Below, piece after piece: positions 7,496 through 17,335 of a DNA stretch of 22,403 nt. Every line of letters begins with the position of its first letter. The first letter of the stretch is position 1. This DNA is from a virus, in IMG/VR virus record IMGVR_UViG_3300032249_000355, positions 1 to 22,403 of that record; one strand, given 5' to 3'. A program made the position numbers and the translations under genes. Under the pieces are notes generated by a model. It did no database searches and had not been told where the DNA came from. It worked only from the letters and a program-made list of their open reading frames with translations.

Positions 7496-9125
7496 AATTA
7501 GAAATGCAGCAGATGGTATAAGGGAAAATCCTGAAATACTTAAAGCTATTGCTAAGAAAACAATTAAAATATTTGGACCTCCTGGCACAGGAAAAACTCA
7601 TAGTTTATTAGACATAGTTGAGAAGGGTATTTCAAGAAAACATATGGTGCCTGATTACATTGGTTTTTGTTCTTATACTGTAAAAGCTGCACGAGAAGGA
7701 ATGGAAAGAGTACTTAAAAAGTTTAAAGGTACATACAGAGAAGATTCTTTTGCATTATTTAAAACAATACATTCAATGTGTTTATCAAGAACAAGAGATG
7801 CAGCATTAGAAATAATAGATGAAAGAAAACATATTCCTGCTTTTAGTTATTTAGAACGAGGAGAAAAAATTAAATTAGAAGTTGGAAAAGACGATGACGG
7901 AAAATTAGTAATTAAAAATTATCCTATTCAATTATATGAGAAGGCAAGGAACTGTAAGATAACTTTAAAAGAAGCTTATGACAGTGATAGTTCAGAAGGA
8001 AAGACAAAAGATTGGCGTAATTTAGTAGATATAGTTAATAATTGGATCAAGTTTAAAGAGGGTTTCTTCATGGACTTTACTGACATGGTAGAAAACTTTT
8101 TGATTAATGATCATTCTTTTGAAACAGATTATTTTATTGTAGATGAAGCACAGGACTTAACTCCATTACAATGGGACTTTGTTTATTTAATGGCAGCTAA
8201 AGCTAAAAAAGTTTACATAGCAGGGGATGATGACCAGGCTATTCATGAATGGAATGGAGCTAGTGTAGAAGAATTTTTAAAGTTTCCAGGCAGATCTATT
8301 GTTTTAAGACAATCAAGAAGATTACCAGAAGAGGTATTAAGATTTTCAGTAAACATTATTAAGAATGTGGTTAATAGAAAAAAGAAACAGTATTATCCGG
8401 CAGGGCACAAAGGATATGTAAGCACAGATAATTTTAAATTAAGCCATGTTAAATTTGAAGATTATCTTAAAGATACTTGGATGATACTAACAAGAACTAA
8501 AAATGAATTGGTTGAGGTGAGAAATACTGCTAGAGATATGGGATTACATTTTAAAAACGCAAAGGGGTTAGGTTCAGTAAATCCAGCTGATTGGAAATCT
8601 ATTGCTCTATGGAATAAATTAATGGAAAACGGTTATCTTAATAGAGAAGAAATTACTTTTTTATATAAGTATATAAATAACATTGAACACGGTTGGAGAA
8701 CAATGACATCAAAAAAATGGAAAGCTATTAAGGAAGATTACCTTAATTATGAAATGTTAAATGAGAGATGTGGTTTAATACAGAATAAGGGACCATGGAC
8801 AACGGCCCTAGAAATTAAAGTAACAGATATAAATTATATTCAAAGATTAATAGAAAAAGGCATTGATTATACCACTAAACCATTGATTATTATAGATAAA
8901 ATACATCAAGTAAAAGGTGGAGAAGCTGATCATGTGGTTGTTTTTGAGGCCTGTCCAAAGATATGCACTTTAAGAGATAAGACACAAAAAGATAGAGACT
9001 CAGAGTTAAGAGTATGGTATGTGGCAGTAACAAGAGCTAAGAAAGGTTTAAACATTATTAAATTTAGCAAACCTTACGGGCATTATATGCCATTAGCTGC
9101 ATTAGGATATGGACATGGAATATGA
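7476..9125 (+). CDS. SF1A (UvrD/Rep/Dda-like) DNA helicase
   Basis: The 549-residue protein has the full SF1A motif set: Walker A GPPGTGKT (34-41), motif Ia FCSYTVKAARE, motif II VDEAQD (222-227), motif III AGDDDQAIHEWNGA (from 249), motif IV around LRQSRRLP, motif V VKGGEADHVVV (from 479) and motif VI VAVTRAK (516-522). At this length it lacks the large 1B/2B insertions of full UvrD and is closer in size to T4 Dda. SF1A helicases move 3'-5' or, in the Dda group, 5'-3' on ssDNA; polarity cannot be told from the sequence. It overlaps the primase gene by 20 bases and the DUF3310 gene by 4 (ATGA), so translation is probably coupled. With no DnaB or gp4 in view it is a candidate fork helicase. 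Confidence 0.93.
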   Translation: MNLPQTKIRNAADGIRENPEILKAIAKKTIKIFGPPGTGKTHSLLDIVEKGISRKHMVPDYIGFCSYTVKAAREGMERVLKKFKGTYREDSFALFKTIHSMCLSRTRDAALEIIDERKHIPAFSYLERGEKIKLEVGKDDDGKLVIKNYPIQLYEKARNCKITLKEAYDSDSSEGKTKDWRNLVDIVNNWIKFKEGFFMDFTDMVENFLINDHSFETDYFIVDEAQDLTPLQWDFVYLMAAKAKKVYIAGDDDQAIHEWNGASVEEFLKFPGRSIVLRQSRRLPEEVLRFSVNIIKNVVNRKKKQYYPAGHKGYVSTDNFKLSHVKFEDYLKDTWMILTRTKNELVEVRNTARDMGLHFKNAKGLGSVNPADWKSIALWNKLMENGYLNREEITFLYKYINNIEHGWRTMTSKKWKAIKEDYLNYEMLNERCGLIQNKGPWTTALEIKVTDINYIQRLIEKGIDYTTKPLIIIDKIHQVKGGEADHVVVFEACPKICTLRDKTQKDRDSELRVWYVAVTRAKKGLNIIKFSKPYGHYMPLAALGYGHGI

Positions 9126-12029: not shown

Positions 12030-12068
12030 TTGACATCTAACTATATTTCATTATATCAAGATAAGATA
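12030..12068 (+). promoter_or_regulatory. Promoter TTGACA-N16-TATATC with overlapping operator half
   Basis: A consensus TTGACA (12030-12035) is followed after 16 bases by TATATC (12052-12057). The 15-base string TATCAAGATAAGATA (12054-12068) overlaps the -10 and runs into the ATG at 12068. It is identical to 20509-20523, upstream of another operon, where it is the right part of a perfect palindrome. Transcription would start about 4 bases before the start codon. Confidence 0.6.
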
Positions 12069-12334
12069 TGACAACAAAAAGCAAATCGAAAGCGTGGCAA
12101 GAATATTCTTCTAAAATAGATGATATTTTAGGTAGAATGTATGACACCAACTATCAAGGTCAAAAAGTGACTGAAGATAGTCCTGAATGTGTGGATGCAA
12201 TACTTCGACTATCTAGTGTTAGTATAAAAATGGGAACTATAGATTTTTTTCCATTGACTGAACATTATGCTAAGTTATTAGTAAGAGATGAATTGTTATC
12301 TAGAGAAGAACAAAAACAACAAAGAAGACACTAA
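12068..12334 (+). CDS. Unknown 88-aa protein, first gene of the micro-ORF operon
   Basis: First gene behind the 12030 promoter, with almost no untranslated leader and no Shine-Dalgarno. The product is charged at both ends and helical: N-terminal TTKSKSKAWQEY, a middle with DSPECVDAILRLSSVSIKMG, and a C-terminal helix LLVRDELLSREEQKQQRRH. No known family. The stop overlaps the next ATG (TAATG). As the leading gene of a tightly coupled operon it may set the translation rate of the membrane peptides that follow. Confidence 0.75.
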   Translation: MTTKSKSKAWQEYSSKIDDILGRMYDTNYQGQKVTEDSPECVDAILRLSSVSIKMGTIDFFPLTEHYAKLLVRDELLSREEQKQQRRH

Positions 12335-12444
12335 TGGAAAATCATTATAAATATATTAGGCAAATACTTATATTAACTTTAATATTATTTCCTAAATTAA
12401 CTTTTATTTTTATTGGACTTATGGCTTATCTTTGGTTATTTTAA
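12334..12444 (+). CDS. Membrane micropeptide (36 aa)
   Basis: ATG overlaps the upstream stop by one base (TAATG). After a short basic/aromatic N-terminus (MENHYKYIRQ), residues 11-36 are almost all Leu, Ile, Phe and Ala with one Lys: a long hydrophobic span with a Pro-Lys in the middle (LFPKLTFIF) that could form a hairpin. No homology recognised. It is the first of a run of tiny membrane ORFs; the overlap and the shared hydrophobic character support coding. Confidence 0.55.
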   Translation: MENHYKYIRQILILTLILFPKLTFIFIGLMAYLWLF

Positions 12445-12453
12445 GGAGTAATT

Positions 12454-12654
12454 ATGGACTATACAAAATGGAAATCAGTAGCAGTAAGAAAAGATAAATA
12501 CGATATAATAAAAGCTTTGTGTGACAAAAAATATAGAGCGCCTGCAGCATTTATTGCAAAACTTGTTGATGAATACATAACTTTTCAAGCAAGTAAAAAT
12601 AAACAAACTGTAGAAATTTATATCAACAATTTATTAAACGGAAAATCAAAATGA
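12454..12654 (+). CDS. Ribbon-helix-helix-like small protein, candidate regulator
   Basis: A good Shine-Dalgarno (AAGGAG, about 6 bases before ATG) marks the start. The 66 residues read like an RHH/CopG-Arc domain: a short N-terminal strand with alternating residues (KWKSVAVRKD), helix 1 (KYDIIKALCDKKY), a turn, and helix 2 (PAAFIAKLVDEYITFQA), followed by a helical tail. RHH dimers bind palindromic operators through the strand. That makes this protein a reasonable candidate for the factor acting at the ATCTTATC/GATAAGAT palindromes in this window, one of which lies at its own operon promoter. Fold recognition is by eye and the family link is moderate. Confidence 0.65.
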   Translation: MDYTKWKSVAVRKDKYDIIKALCDKKYRAPAAFIAKLVDEYITFQASKNKQTVEIYINNLLNGKSK

Positions 12655-12731
12655 CATACTTTTTTATATGGATGGGGTTATTAATTGCTTTAATAGCTTT
12701 AGTATTATTTATAGTGTGGTGTTGTAAATGA
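12651..12731 (+). CDS. Membrane micropeptide (26 aa)
   Basis: ATG overlaps the RHH-like gene stop by four bases (ATGA). Nearly the whole peptide is one hydrophobic span (MGLLIALIALVLFIVW) capped by Cys-Cys-Lys. It ends with another ATGA overlap into the lipoprotein gene. The paired overlaps on both sides are the main support for coding. Confidence 0.5.
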   Translation: MTYFFIWMGLLIALIALVLFIVWCCK

Positions 12732-12880
12732 AACCAATTGTAATAATTATGTGCCTACTTCTATCTGGTTGCTTTGGCACTGAACTTCTTAGAATAGGTG
12801 GTATTGGAATTAAAACAGGAGATATAATTTCTTTACCCCACAAAATAGAAACACTAACAAAAGATAAAAATGATAAGTAA
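12728..12880 (+). CDS. Small lipoprotein with lipobox (50 aa)
   Basis: The N-terminus is a classic lipoprotein signal: one Lys, a hydrophobic core (PIVIIMCLLLSG) and the lipobox L-S-G-C with Cys15 as the lipidated residue, followed by FGTELLRIGGIG. After cleavage about 35 residues would remain, anchored to a membrane. In phages, tiny lipoproteins serve as outer-membrane spanin subunits or superinfection-exclusion proteins; the mature part is short and not proline-rich, so an o-spanin role is possible but not shown. It overlaps both neighbours (ATGA before, 11 bases after). Confidence 0.62.
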   Translation: MKPIVIIMCLLLSGCFGTELLRIGGIGIKTGDIISLPHKIETLTKDKNDK

Positions 12881-12983
12881 ACATTTAAAAGATATAAAGA
12901 AGTTATTAAAAGCATACCATAAGAAATTTGATTGCTTCGGTAAGCAACGAAATAAACCAACTAAAAGAAAGAGAAAAAGATAA
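12870..12983 (+). CDS. Very basic micropeptide (37 aa)
   Basis: The product is strongly cationic, more than a third Lys and Arg, ending in TKRKRKR, with a single Cys in the middle (FDCFGKQ). It overlaps the lipoprotein gene by 11 bases and shares the A of its TAA with the next ATG. Likely nucleic-acid or membrane-surface binding by charge alone. No family recognised. Confidence 0.45.
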   Translation: MISKHLKDIKKLLKAYHKKFDCFGKQRNKPTKRKRKR

Positions 12984-13051
12984 TGGAAAGTAATATAATT
13001 GAATTAATAATTATAGGAATACTTGCAGCTTTTTTTGTGAGTATAATTTAA
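12983..13051 (+). CDS. Membrane micropeptide (22 aa)
   Basis: A single hydrophobic helix (IIELIIIGILAAFFVSII) after M-E-S-N. ATG overlaps the upstream stop (TAATG) and the next ATG follows the stop directly. At 22 residues it is near the lower limit of what can be called by eye; support is positional and compositional only. Confidence 0.4.
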   Translation: MESNIIELIIIGILAAFFVSII

Positions 13052-13144
13052 ATGATTGAATTAATGAAAGCATTATATTGGTCAGAAATTATACTTATAA
13101 TAGTTCTGGGAATAATTTTTATAAGCTTTATGAAAAAAAGATAA
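13052..13144 (+). CDS. Membrane micropeptide with basic end (30 aa)
   Basis: Starts at the base after the previous stop. A short amphipathic start (MIELMKALYW) is followed by one transmembrane span (IILIIVLGIIFISF) and the positive tail MKKR, giving a predicted orientation with the C-terminus in the cytoplasm. No family recognised. Confidence 0.45.
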   Translation: MIELMKALYWSEIILIIVLGIIFISFMKKR

Positions 13145-13146
13145 AT

Positions 13147-13239
13147 ATGAATATAAAAAATCATAAACCAAATGGTTGGGTATTATTAATAGTGATAAGT
13201 TGGTTGTTATTAATTTTGTCAATAACAATTCTTAAATGA
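13147..13239 (+). CDS. Membrane micropeptide (30 aa)
   Basis: Begins two bases after the previous stop. A polar, basic N-terminus (MNIKNHKPNG) is followed by one span (WVLLIVISWLLLILSITI) ending in Leu-Lys. The ATGA overlap at its end couples it to the next ORF. Predicted single-pass membrane peptide of unknown function. Confidence 0.45.
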   Translation: MNIKNHKPNGWVLLIVISWLLLILSITILK

Positions 13240-13343
13240 TTTTTAAATTAATTAAAAACTTTTCCTCTTGGTTAAATTATAAACTTTGGTTATATGAAGT
13301 AAGAAAAAGAACAAAAAGATATAAAAAAGAAGGAAAGTTGTGA
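13236..13343 (+). CDS. Basic, aromatic micropeptide (35 aa)
   Basis: ATGA overlap with the previous ORF. The N-terminal half is amphipathic and aromatic (FKLIKNFSSWLNYKLWLYE); the C-terminal half is strongly basic (VRKRTKRYKKEGKL). This looks like a membrane-surface or nucleic-acid binding peptide. The gene stop overlaps the GTG start of the epimerase (GTGA), and the AAGGAA inside its end serves as the epimerase Shine-Dalgarno. Confidence 0.5.
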   Translation: MIFKLIKNFSSWLNYKLWLYEVRKRTKRYKKEGKL

Positions 13344-14341
13344 AAATTTTAATTACAGGGGCCGCAGGTTTTTTAGGATCTCATATTGGTATTAAGTTAT
13401 CTAAACTTGGTTATGATGTTTATGGTGTAGACAACATGATTGGTGGAGATGATTATAATTGGAATTGGTTACCAAAAGAAAAAGCATTTAAATATGATTG
13501 TTCTAATTTAGAACAAATGTTGTTAATAACAAAAGATATGGATGTTGTTTATCATTGTGCTGCAACTCCTCACGAAGGACTTTCAGTATTTTCACCTTAT
13601 ACAATTACACAAAACAATTTAATGGCTACAGTTGGTGTGGTAACTGCTGCAGTACAAAATAAAGTTAAAAAGATTATTTATTGTTCATCAATGGCAAGAT
13701 ATGGACATCAAGGAACTCCATTTACAGAAGATATGAAACCAAGACCGGTAGATCCATATGGTGTATCAAAAGTAGCAGGGGAACAAATGCTGCAGATATT
13801 ATGTGATACTCATGGAGTAGATTGGACAATTGCAGTGCCTCATAACATTATAGGGCCATTACAAAAATATGACGACCCATTTAGGAATGTGGTATCAATA
13901 TTTTTAAATAGAATGATGCAGGGTAAACCACCAATAATTTATGGAGATGGATTACAAACAAGATGTTTTTCTTATGTGGATGATTGTGTGTATTGTTTAA
14001 TTAGAATGATTCATGGCGGTAGCAAAGAAGTTATAAACATAGGACCAGATGAAGAATTTACAACTGTAAAAGAATTGGCTGAAATATGTGCAAACATAAC
14101 TGGCTATAATGGAACTTTTACTTATGTGCCTGATAGACCACAAGAAGTTAAACATGCTGTGTGTTCATCAGATAAAGCTAGAAAAATTTTAAAATATAAA
14201 ACAACAACTAAACTAAAGAAAGCTGTTGAAGAAACTTATAAATATATAAAAGAACGTGGTGCAAAACCTTTTAATTATTATTTAGATTTAGAAATAATAA
14301 ATGAGAAAACTCCTAAAACTTGGACTGAGAAAAAGATATGA
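13340..14341 (+). CDS. NAD-dependent nucleotide-sugar epimerase/dehydratase (extended SDR)
   Basis: The 333-residue protein is a complete extended short-chain dehydrogenase. It has the Rossmann motif TGAAGFLG (6-13), Asp near residue 36 for the NAD ribose (YGVDNMIGG), the catalytic Ser region CSSM (115-118) and Tyr140-x3-Lys144 (YGVSK). RCFSYVDD, typical of the UDP/GDP-sugar epimerase group, lies further on. The substrate cannot be read from the sequence; UDP-glucose/GlcNAc 4-epimerase or GDP-mannose epimerase-like activity is likely. Phages carry such genes to make modified sugars, probably for glycosylating virion protein, DNA or host surface glycans. The GTG start with Shine-Dalgarno AAGGAA overlaps the upstream micro-ORF, and the end overlaps the glycosyltransferase (ATGA), implying a joint pathway. 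Confidence 0.93.
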   Translation: MKILITGAAGFLGSHIGIKLSKLGYDVYGVDNMIGGDDYNWNWLPKEKAFKYDCSNLEQMLLITKDMDVVYHCAATPHEGLSVFSPYTITQNNLMATVGVVTAAVQNKVKKIIYCSSMARYGHQGTPFTEDMKPRPVDPYGVSKVAGEQMLQILCDTHGVDWTIAVPHNIIGPLQKYDDPFRNVVSIFLNRMMQGKPPIIYGDGLQTRCFSYVDDCVYCLIRMIHGGSKEVINIGPDEEFTTVKELAEICANITGYNGTFTYVPDRPQEVKHAVCSSDKARKILKYKTTTKLKKAVEETYKYIKERGAKPFNYYLDLEIINEKTPKTWTEKKI

Positions 14342-15240
14342 ACCATGTGTTTTGTTTCGTAAGTTCAGCTAAGACAGAACATTTTTCAGCGCTTGCTTTA
14401 GATTCTTTTTTTAACAATACAAAACTAGAGCCAGGAGACATATTTGTATTCGTTAACAATGACGGAACAAATTCATTTAGAAAAAGCTATCCAATAGATG
14501 TGTATATAAATAATAAGACTCCAAAGTCTTGGGCAGAAAACTTTAATAAAGGTTTAAGAATAGCTAAAAGATTTAAAAAACACTTCGTAGTAATAACAAA
14601 CGATATTGTATTTACTAAAAATTGGTTTGAGCCATTAAAACAAAGAGATGATGCTGTGTTGATACCTGCTTGTAATATAAATTATTTATATAATGCTGCA
14701 GAATTTAAAACTTCTCCATGTATGCAAATGGAAGAATATATTGGAAAAGAAAAACATTTAGAATCTATTGTTGAATTTCATCAAAACAAATTTAAGTTTG
14801 AGGACCTACAAGAAAGAATATTTATGCAATTATATTTAGGAAGAATTCCGTATCAAGTACATAGCAGTGTGGGTTATTTTGATCATACATTTTCTAACTG
14901 TGGTGGAGAAGATATGGATTATAGAATTAGATGTGCAATACAGGGTTTTAAAACTATGGTAGCAAATCATTCATTAACATTACATTTTCATGGTAAATCT
15001 AGTTGGGATGGAAGTGAGTCAACTTATGAAGAAGAGCAAAGAAGAGCAAAATACATAGATAAATCAATGAAAAAATGGGGTTTAGACCTTACAGAGATAT
15101 TTATTAAAGGTAATAATGCTAAACAACATTGCACTCAACTAGGGCTTGAAGAGTATTTTAATAAGGGTGAATCTTTTAATATAATGAGAACATTAGTACA
15201 AAAGAACTTGCCAAAAGAACAAATAACCTCTAATAACTAA
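14338..15240 (+). CDS. GT-A type glycosyltransferase
   Basis: The 300-residue protein begins with a beta strand (HVFCFVSSAK) and has the nucleotide-binding features of a GT-A fold: VFVNNDGTNS (about 37-46), SWAENFNKGLRIAKRF, and the DxD-like ITNDIVF with Asp89. A late acidic pair Glu191-Asp192 (GGEDMDYRIR) resembles the catalytic ED of GT2/GT27-like enzymes, and a His further on (LHFHGKSSW) may help bind metal. It probably transfers the sugar made by the coupled epimerase. The acceptor is unknown. The ATGA overlap indicates translational coupling. No signal peptide, so it acts in the cytoplasm. Confidence 0.85.
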   Translation: MNHVFCFVSSAKTEHFSALALDSFFNNTKLEPGDIFVFVNNDGTNSFRKSYPIDVYINNKTPKSWAENFNKGLRIAKRFKKHFVVITNDIVFTKNWFEPLKQRDDAVLIPACNINYLYNAAEFKTSPCMQMEEYIGKEKHLESIVEFHQNKFKFEDLQERIFMQLYLGRIPYQVHSSVGYFDHTFSNCGGEDMDYRIRCAIQGFKTMVANHSLTLHFHGKSSWDGSESTYEEEQRRAKYIDKSMKKWGLDLTEIFIKGNNAKQHCTQLGLEEYFNKGESFNIMRTLVQKNLPKEQITSNN

Positions 15241-15242
15241 TC

Positions 15243-15437
15243 ATGGATATAATTATTTATAAAACTTGTAATCACTGTAAAGGTAATGGGTACATGACTG
15301 TGTATTTGAATGAAGGAACTGTTACTTGTAATGAATGTGGTGGTGCGGGTTATTTTTATCCAAGTAAGACGAACAATGAAACACGAACAACGGACATCAA
15401 CCCTAATCAGGAGTCCGTATCATGTCAACAACCGTAG
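15243..15437 (+). CDS. DnaJ-type zinc-finger microprotein (64 aa)
   Basis: Two CxxCxGxG-type motifs (CNHCKGNGY and CNECGGAGY) spaced as in the DnaJ central zinc domain are expected to bind one zinc ion. No J-domain is present, so this is a stand-alone zinc-ribbon protein of a kind common in phages. The C-terminal third (from about residue 42) is polar and is encoded by DNA containing a copy of the dispersed CACGAACAACGGACA repeat, suggesting that this tail arose by repeat insertion. The end overlaps the next gene by 16 bases. Confidence 0.75.
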   Translation: MDIIIYKTCNHCKGNGYMTVYLNEGTVTCNECGGAGYFYPSKTNNETRTTDINPNQESVSCQQP

Positions 15438-16448: not shown

Positions 16449-16610
16449 ATGCCTAAAAAGAAAAAAGAAGAAACACTAGAAGATATCTTAGATAGAATTG
16501 AAACAGATATTCAGACTATCAGAGATAAAATAGAAGAAAATAACGACAATTTTGATGATTCTGACGATGATTCTGACGATGATTTTGAAGATGAATCAGA
16601 TGAAGAGTAG
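16449..16610 (+). CDS. Acidic-tail microprotein (53 aa)
   Basis: An excellent Shine-Dalgarno (AAAGGAGG, 5-6 bases before ATG) marks the start. The product has three parts: a basic start (MPKKKK), a coiled-coil helix (LEDILDRIETDIQTIRDKIEE) and a highly acidic Asp/Glu/Ser tail of about 22 residues. The tail is partly coded by a tandem 12-base repeat (TTCTGACGATGA twice, about 16558-16581). Acidic small phage proteins can mimic DNA (for example T7 Ocr) or block host nucleases and RNA polymerase, but nothing here proves that. It stands alone, followed by a promoter and terminator. Confidence 0.7.
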   Translation: MPKKKKEETLEDILDRIETDIQTIRDKIEENNDNFDDSDDDSDDDFEDESDEE

Positions 16611-16786: not shown

Positions 16787-16906
16787 ATGCCTAACTATTC
16801 AGAAATAAAGTCTTATTGGACAAAGTTTGCAACAGATGTAACAGCAGATGTTAAATCTTTTTGGGAAAACTACTTTAAGACCATTGAGTCCATCTATAAA
16901 AAATAG
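16787..16906 (+). CDS. Small amphipathic-helix protein (39 aa)
   Basis: A Shine-Dalgarno-like GAGGA sits 5 bases before ATG. The 39 residues form one long amphipathic helix with regularly placed aromatics (YWTKF, SFWENYF) and alternating charge, somewhat like a phasin repeat, but too short for a firm family call. It stands alone, after a terminator and before the gene-free structured region. The coding call rests on the start signal, reading-frame composition and a clean TAG stop. Confidence 0.55.
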   Translation: MPNYSEIKSYWTKFATDVTADVKSFWENYFKTIESIYKK

Positions 16907-16944
16907 TTGTTGACAACAATATATTAATAATTAAATTAACACTT

Positions 16945-17088: not shown

Positions 17089-17335
17089 CAAAGACAGTCC
17101 TAAGACAGCCAAAGACATCTCAAATGTCTTTGCTTAAGTCATTGTAATTAAAGCATAATTAAGCAAAAAACTATATCAAAGACAGTATATATAGGATGGG
17201 GTACCCTAAAAATAAAAATACCCATACCCCCCTGTCTTTGCGTCTTTGGGGGTAAAATTTGCCATATTGTATATATAAATCAATGGGTTAGTCTAAGACA
17301 CTTGCGATGTCTTTGCCTGTCTTTGCGTGTCTTTG
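17089..17335. repeat. Array of nine GTCTTTG heptamers in both orientations (iterons / pac site candidate)
   Basis: Forward GTCTTTG copies start at 17126, 17234, 17242, 17309, 17319 and 17329. Reverse copies (CAAAGAC) start at 17089, 17110 and 17177. The copies at 17309, 17319 and 17329 are exactly 10 bases apart, one helical turn, and read TGTCTTTG each time. The copies at 17110 and 17126 form a perfect 9-bp hairpin (17110-17132). Between copies is a C-rich/A-rich stretch (17190-17230). The array ends about 210 bases before terS. Repeated protein-binding boxes next to terS are what TerS recognises in pac/cos phages; an origin with iterons is the alternative. Confidence 0.65.

Follow-up and report, generated by a model that had tools for sequence, protein, structure and literature searches.

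The host-takeover module of phage SPO1 is a cluster of small early phage genes. Numerous small phage genes are already known, and the small proteins of phages have been reviewed (PMC11323111). Small early clusters (the SPO1 module; PMC11323111) consist of tiny, packed genes on the replication side, which have no assigned function and vary between relatives. The micro-gene cassette described here differs from them in that its genes lie at the lower size limit (22-50 codons), mostly encode single helices and are nearly all coupled by start and stop codons; they are also exchanged one at a time, with the coupling preserved. One product, m3, resembles known small phage lipoproteins, namely the Cor/Llp superinfection-exclusion lipoproteins and the Rz1 outer-membrane spanins. 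However, Rz1 spanins pair with an inner-membrane partner, and the cassette has no such partner. In Pelagibacter phage HTVC023P (MN698239), the gp11-gp16 slot has the same gene order as the present locus: PolA, small genes, two minus-strand genes, A88, the RHH-like gene and ZnF. Between RHH and ZnF the slot is filled by other genes, and m1-m8 were undetected in bases 1-50000 of the 60878 in that record.

The window (the whole stretch of DNA that was analysed) is a 22,403-base virus record. At the DNA level its DNA polymerase gene shares about 65% identity with those of Pelagibacter phages HTVC023P and HTVC027P. The phage is of the HTVC023P (pelagiphage) kind, and because of the polymerase resemblance its host is probably a SAR11 bacterium. 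The closest long relative, G001, is 44 kb in length. The cassette lies among replication-side genes; it and its flanks comprise the following features.

12030..12057, plus strand: putative sigma70-type promoter (TTGACA, 16 nt, TATATC), just upstream of A88
12068..12334, plus strand: A88, 88-aa protein, first gene of the operon; syntenic homologue of HTVC023P gp11
12334..12444, plus strand: m1, 36-aa hydrophobic peptide with a conserved mid-helix Pro-Lys; TAATG overlap with A88
12454..12654, plus strand: RHH-like gene, 66-aa protein; strong Shine-Dalgarno (SD) sequence AAGGAG
12651..12731, plus strand: m2, 26-aa single-helix peptide; ATGA overlap
12728..12880, plus strand: m3, 50-aa small lipoprotein; lipobox LLSGC, residue +2 not Asp
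12870..12983, plus strand: m4, 37-aa basic peptide, helix plus Lys/Arg tail
12983..13051, plus strand: m5, 22-aa single-helix peptide; TAATG overlap
13052..13144, plus strand: m6, 30-aa single-helix peptide, C-terminus basic
13147..13239, plus strand: m7, 30-aa single-helix peptide, N-terminus basic, two conserved Trp
13236..13343, plus strand: m8, 35-aa basic amphipathic peptide, core KKFSSWLDY..W..E.K.R
13340..14341, plus strand: NAD-dependent epimerase/dehydratase; GTG start overlapping m8, SD AAGGA within m8
14338..15240, plus strand: 300-aa protein overlapping the epimerase end; no Pfam match
15243..15437, plus strand: DnaJ-type zinc-finger (ZnF) small protein (DUF5351, 4.4e-07)

The TTGACA element is identical in seven relatives; two minus-strand genes diverge from the intergenic stretch in which it sits. 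It may act as a promoter; a scan with a stricter consensus missed it and did no better than on shuffled sequence. A88 (pN/pS 0.30) has a profile match to HTVC023P 7972-8256 (E 3.5e-38). The RHH-like gene (pN/pS 0.13) is a homologue of HTVC023P gp13. Its label, taken over from the sequence-only reading, is plausible from the helix layout but unconfirmed. The model (mean pLDDT 80) has an N-terminal extended stretch, two helices and then a C-terminal helix; as a monomer it places two helices where expected, but without the strand. The best PDB matches are insignificant, although two of them are the RHH proteins AvtR and NikA. The epimerase matches Pfam Epimerase at 6.5e-45, and the 300-aa protein looks glycosyltransferase-like by eye. 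The ZnF family closes the slot in relatives and directly precedes m4 in other phages (13 ZnF-m4 junctions).

All eight micro-ORFs are present at the positions first described, with sizes of 22-50 codons and an ATG start each. From A88 to the epimerase the spacings are -1, +9, -4, -4, -11, -1, 0, +2, -4 and -4 nt. The chaining by overlap or by a gap of at most 2 nt thus holds throughout, the sole wider gap being the 9 nt before the RHH-like gene. A single hydrophobic stretch is found in five peptides (m1, m2, m5, m6 and m7; maximum Kyte-Doolittle value over 19 residues 2.4-3.1), a lipobox in m3, and strong positive charge in m4 (+14) and m8 (+9), as the sequence-only reading had described. It also judged that so long a chain would hardly arise by chance, and this was borne out: counting ORFs of at least 22 codons, the chain holds nine, and 5,000 dinucleotide shuffles of the segment never gave more than three. 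The rest of the window, on both strands and outside stretches overlapping the cassette, likewise reaches at most three. A common gene-caller minimum is 90 nt. The expectation that such ORFs fall below gene-calling cutoffs is correct for m2 (81 nt) and m5 (69 nt) but not for the other six.

Relatives were gathered by scanning viral contigs with neighbouring genes and peptide alignments. Seven of the eight micro-genes recur in other viral contigs, and m2 recurs weakly. Family-wide pN/pS, calculated over independent pairs, is 0.24-0.50 for m1 and m3-m8, against neutral means of about 0.69-1.0. None of 500 neutral simulations was as low for m1, m3, m4, m6, m7, m8 or the related families mL and mN. 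The individual values are 0.50 for m1 (15 members), 0.35 for m3 (22 distinct homologues), 0.27 for m4 (60), 0.34 for m7 (27, three of them weak) and 0.28 for m8 (37). Those for m6 (0.24) and m5 (0.40; seven members, three pairs, 11 of 500 simulations equally low) come from few pairs. A pooled test on closer relatives gives median dN/dS of 0.18-0.68 over the cassette peptides, with m1 the highest. When relatives were checked for broken frames and for lack of third-position bias, neither was found in the testable families. Homologues and purifying selection together support real coding, and at the level of sequence comparison the micro-frames are genes under purifying selection, with the exception of m2, which has too few homologues. 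The single weak m2 homologue (46% in L071, E 0.004) is in a contig that also holds an m3 relative, and support for m2 as a gene comes mainly from the coupled chain.

In m3 the lipobox is conserved and its Cys is invariant in 15 aligned homologues; the lipoprotein would be sorted to the outer membrane. Its structure model is of low confidence (mean pLDDT 65, little beyond one helix) and was left unused. A ribosome-binding role for m4 was considered and rejected, the PDB matches to ribosomal protein S16 and eIF1 being at E>0.5.

The eight genes had been regarded as one unit. This does not hold, since the micro-genes are separately exchangeable. Among 16 syntenic loci, the compositions of which were entered by hand, there are 13 different cassettes. 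In the seven close relatives (window included) the order A88-m1-RHH is constant, and the stretch from RHH to the epimerase changes by whole genes. Insertion, loss and replacement of whole micro-genes occur exactly at start/stop junctions. Clean gene-sized insertions and deletions are seen among relatives with RHH proteins 78-98% identical, and composition differs even between phages in which this protein is at least 95% identical. Within this group m2 and m3 are found only in the window and are missing from its six closest relatives. L088 also lacks m7, and carries a different small lipoprotein gene (TTG start, beginning LKYLFIILMLTNCSKDISFDPGTT) that separates its m8 from the epimerase. L087 has an additional membrane peptide and the mL family, and L085 has the mN family in place of m7. 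In more distant relatives an 80-aa coiled-coil gene follows RHH, and m3 lies after m4 instead of before it. Counted over 119 non-redundant loci, the different neighbours of m4 number at least 12 on the upstream side and at least 12 on the downstream side. Comparison of these sequences shows that cassette genes are gained, lost and exchanged as gene-sized modules; the microproteins are not a fixed complex.

The cassette is composite, because in many other phages m8 is the companion of the epimerase that follows it here; its travelling with a holin/epimerase neighbourhood also contradicts a fixed unit. Of 38 testable loci with an m8 relative, 29 have a GTA_holin_3TM (PF11351) gene upstream of it, at a median of 620 bp from start to start; a 33-aa lipoprotein gene (18/38) and a 31-aa coiled-coil gene often lie in the interval. 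In 20 loci the m8 relative directly precedes the same epimerase family. These counts are not independent because many of the contigs look closely related. Unlike that neighbourhood, the window and G001 have no detectable PF11351 gene, and none was found in the HTVC023P and HTVC027P records.

Coupling (a gap of -20 to +2 nt) is characteristic of micro-gene junctions. There are 112 distinct micro junction types, of which 48 are of -4 nt and 16 of -1 nt. Coupled junctions make up 90 of the 112, compared with 136 of 287 between other small genes at the same loci (Fisher p 1e-9); the path algorithm used to place genes and starts in relatives was mildly weighted towards gaps of -4 and -1 nt, in both groups alike, which may have made some junction types wrong and somewhat inflates the counts. 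New neighbours usually restore the coupling through an overlap of 4 or 1 nt, and most of them lack an SD core. Such a core is present at 25 of 90 coupled starts against 11 of 17 uncoupled ones (p 0.005). Within the window cassette, clear SD pairing is seen only for the RHH-like gene (-8.7 kcal/mol) and the epimerase (-5.7 kcal/mol). This pattern fits termination-reinitiation. Transcription would start upstream of A88, ribosomes would load at the few SD sites (RHH-like gene, epimerase), and most micro-ORFs between these would be made by termination-reinitiation. Any module that brings an overlapping start would then be expressed at once.

The word AAATGA occurs at five cassette junctions in the window. 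Over the loci compared it is found at 36 of 112 micro junctions and 38 of 287 others (p 3e-5), and among 4-nt overlaps at 27 of 48 and 16 of 51 respectively (Fisher p 0.016), both p values being uncorrected for base composition and number of tests. A tentative idea is that this overlap word (A-rich ATGA, often AAATGA) is a recombination seam and the cassette a combinatorial store of envelope microproteins, built bead by bead. With swapping at the overlap word, a foreign micro-gene would arrive already translationally coupled. Given the uncorrected p values the seam idea serves as a lead, and it is less likely than not.

The reading that we prefer, with a probability of roughly 0.6, is that the locus is an accessory operon which undergoes rearrangement and consists of translated microprotein genes, the products of which are directed at the envelope and serve host takeover or competitor exclusion. 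Hydropathy, lipobox and charge support the envelope-type peptides of the sequence-only reading. The products would comprise single-helix inner-membrane peptides, an outer-membrane lipoprotein and basic amphipathic peptides, and would act on host membrane proteins; this functional part, the weakest of the reading, draws on topology and turnover. High turnover fits host- or competitor-specific targets, and it is also compatible with mildly constrained neutral baggage.

Lysis as the main role, one of the functions first suggested, is disfavoured because G001 has its own lysis cassette elsewhere and a spanin partner is missing here. G001 groups its M15 peptidase and glucosaminidase genes with one for a membrane-anchored coiled coil, far from the micro-genes. 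The Rz/Rz1 spanin reading was rejected: m3 fits as the lipoprotein, but there is no inner-membrane partner with a long coiled coil, the largest product being 50 aa. Also unlikely is a lesser part in lysis, in which some of the single-helix peptides depolarise the membrane like pinholins on behalf of a signal-anchored glucosaminidase whose gene lies elsewhere, and the lipoprotein helps to disrupt the outer membrane. The m8 loci with holin and 33-aa lipoprotein genes speak for it, as does the absence of GTA_holin_3TM from the window, G001 and the two HTVC records searched. The G001 glucosaminidase carries an N-terminal membrane anchor, and in known phages this type needs a pinholin. In 15 of 72 m4 loci, M15 and glucosaminidase lie 1.5-2.1 kb upstream. 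However, the other 57 have no M15 within 3 kb, the G001 lysis cassette has its own membrane-anchored coiled-coil gene, and the micro-genes are on the replication side. No holin or spanin family in Pfam or PHROGs matches m1-m8. Composition that varies at RHH identities of 95% or more would be odd for an essential lysis timer. The cassette peptides may still have a depolarising role.

Known membrane toxins are 19-50 aa long, and the peptides resemble them in size and topology as well as showing high turnover. Type I-toxin-like or otherwise growth-inhibiting hydrophobic peptides, turned against the host or rival phages, are nevertheless quite improbable: five would be joined in one coupled operon, there is no hint of genes for antisense RNA partners (Rfam has no match in the window), and the sole possible antitoxin-like gene, the RHH-like one, is far better conserved than the peptides. 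It is highly improbable that the frames serve mainly as translation relays or spacers, bringing ribosomes from RHH down to the epimerase, with the peptides as by-products. Weak or absent SD sequences at most micro-ORFs and coupling unbroken to the epimerase would suit such relays, but purifying selection acts on the peptides at the protein level and particular residues are conserved, an SD of its own serves the epimerase, and micro-genes are kept in relatives without the epimerase. Chance ORFs could be suspected in a segment of 24% G+C; the shuffles, homologues and selection refute them and leave this a negligible probability.

Several other small genes and sites were noted in the window and its relatives. 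A 77-aa protein with a C-terminal membrane helix (1988-2221) has a 90% identical counterpart in G001 (29158-29388) and a weak PHROG 'hemolysin' (XhlA-like) match (E 0.0012). L136 (1966-3013) and L189 (1914-2967) encode a glucosaminidase with an N-terminal membrane anchor, directly followed by an M15 peptidase, a compact early-side lysis pair a few genes past DNA polymerase. At 16450-16610 there is a small ORF with an acidic Asp/Glu-rich end tract derived from a 12-bp tandem repeat (16554-16594); L122, L157 and L189 have similar ORFs by eye. An ORF of about 39 aa at 16788-16907 (MPNYSEIKSYWTKFATDV...) resembles, also by eye, small ORFs in L122 and in L212, where the counterpart is just downstream of an m8 relative. 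The window contains nine TGTCTTTG words, counting both orientations, against 1.3 expected, and eight of them fall within 250 bases at 17089-17335. This cluster is apparently non-coding, contains a C-run near 17228 and lies upstream of a terminase small subunit-like gene; it is possibly an origin, packaging or regulator site.

Searches of Pfam and PHROGs (m1-m8) and PDB (m3 and m4) gave no significant match. For m3, PHROG Cor and Rz reach only E 0.35-0.42 (Cor 0.42), at the signal-peptide end. By tblastn against 50,697 phage records, m3, m4 and m8 have nothing at E<=1, and a single m8 match at E 9 is due to chance. Neither m3 nor m4 was found in GTDB genomes. As BLAST masks low complexity, a local profile search of pelagiphage records was added. 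Profiles of m1-m8, mL and mN gave nothing better than E 0.02 on large parts of five records: HTVC105P (1-36572 of 42385), HTVC103P (1-50000 of 54103), HTVC023P (1-50000 of 60878), HTVC027P (nearly whole) and 023Pt_psg01 (12.8 kb). Cultured Pelagibacter phage HTVC105P (L265) has an unannotated 37-aa lipoprotein at 16474-16587, related to the L088 type. It sits between two ribonucleotide reductase subunit genes and is kin to lipoproteins near m4 and m8 elsewhere. The literature searched, with most subscription journals outside it, yielded no description of these families, of single-gene exchange or of preserved coupling.

Within these scopes, several selected microprotein families are new to Pfam, PHROGs, PDB and the searched phage records. 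The cassette illustrates how phages could trade tiny genes without loss of expression. The peptides are concrete candidates for tests of membrane action in a host group of great ecological weight, since related phages infect the commonest bacteria of the ocean.
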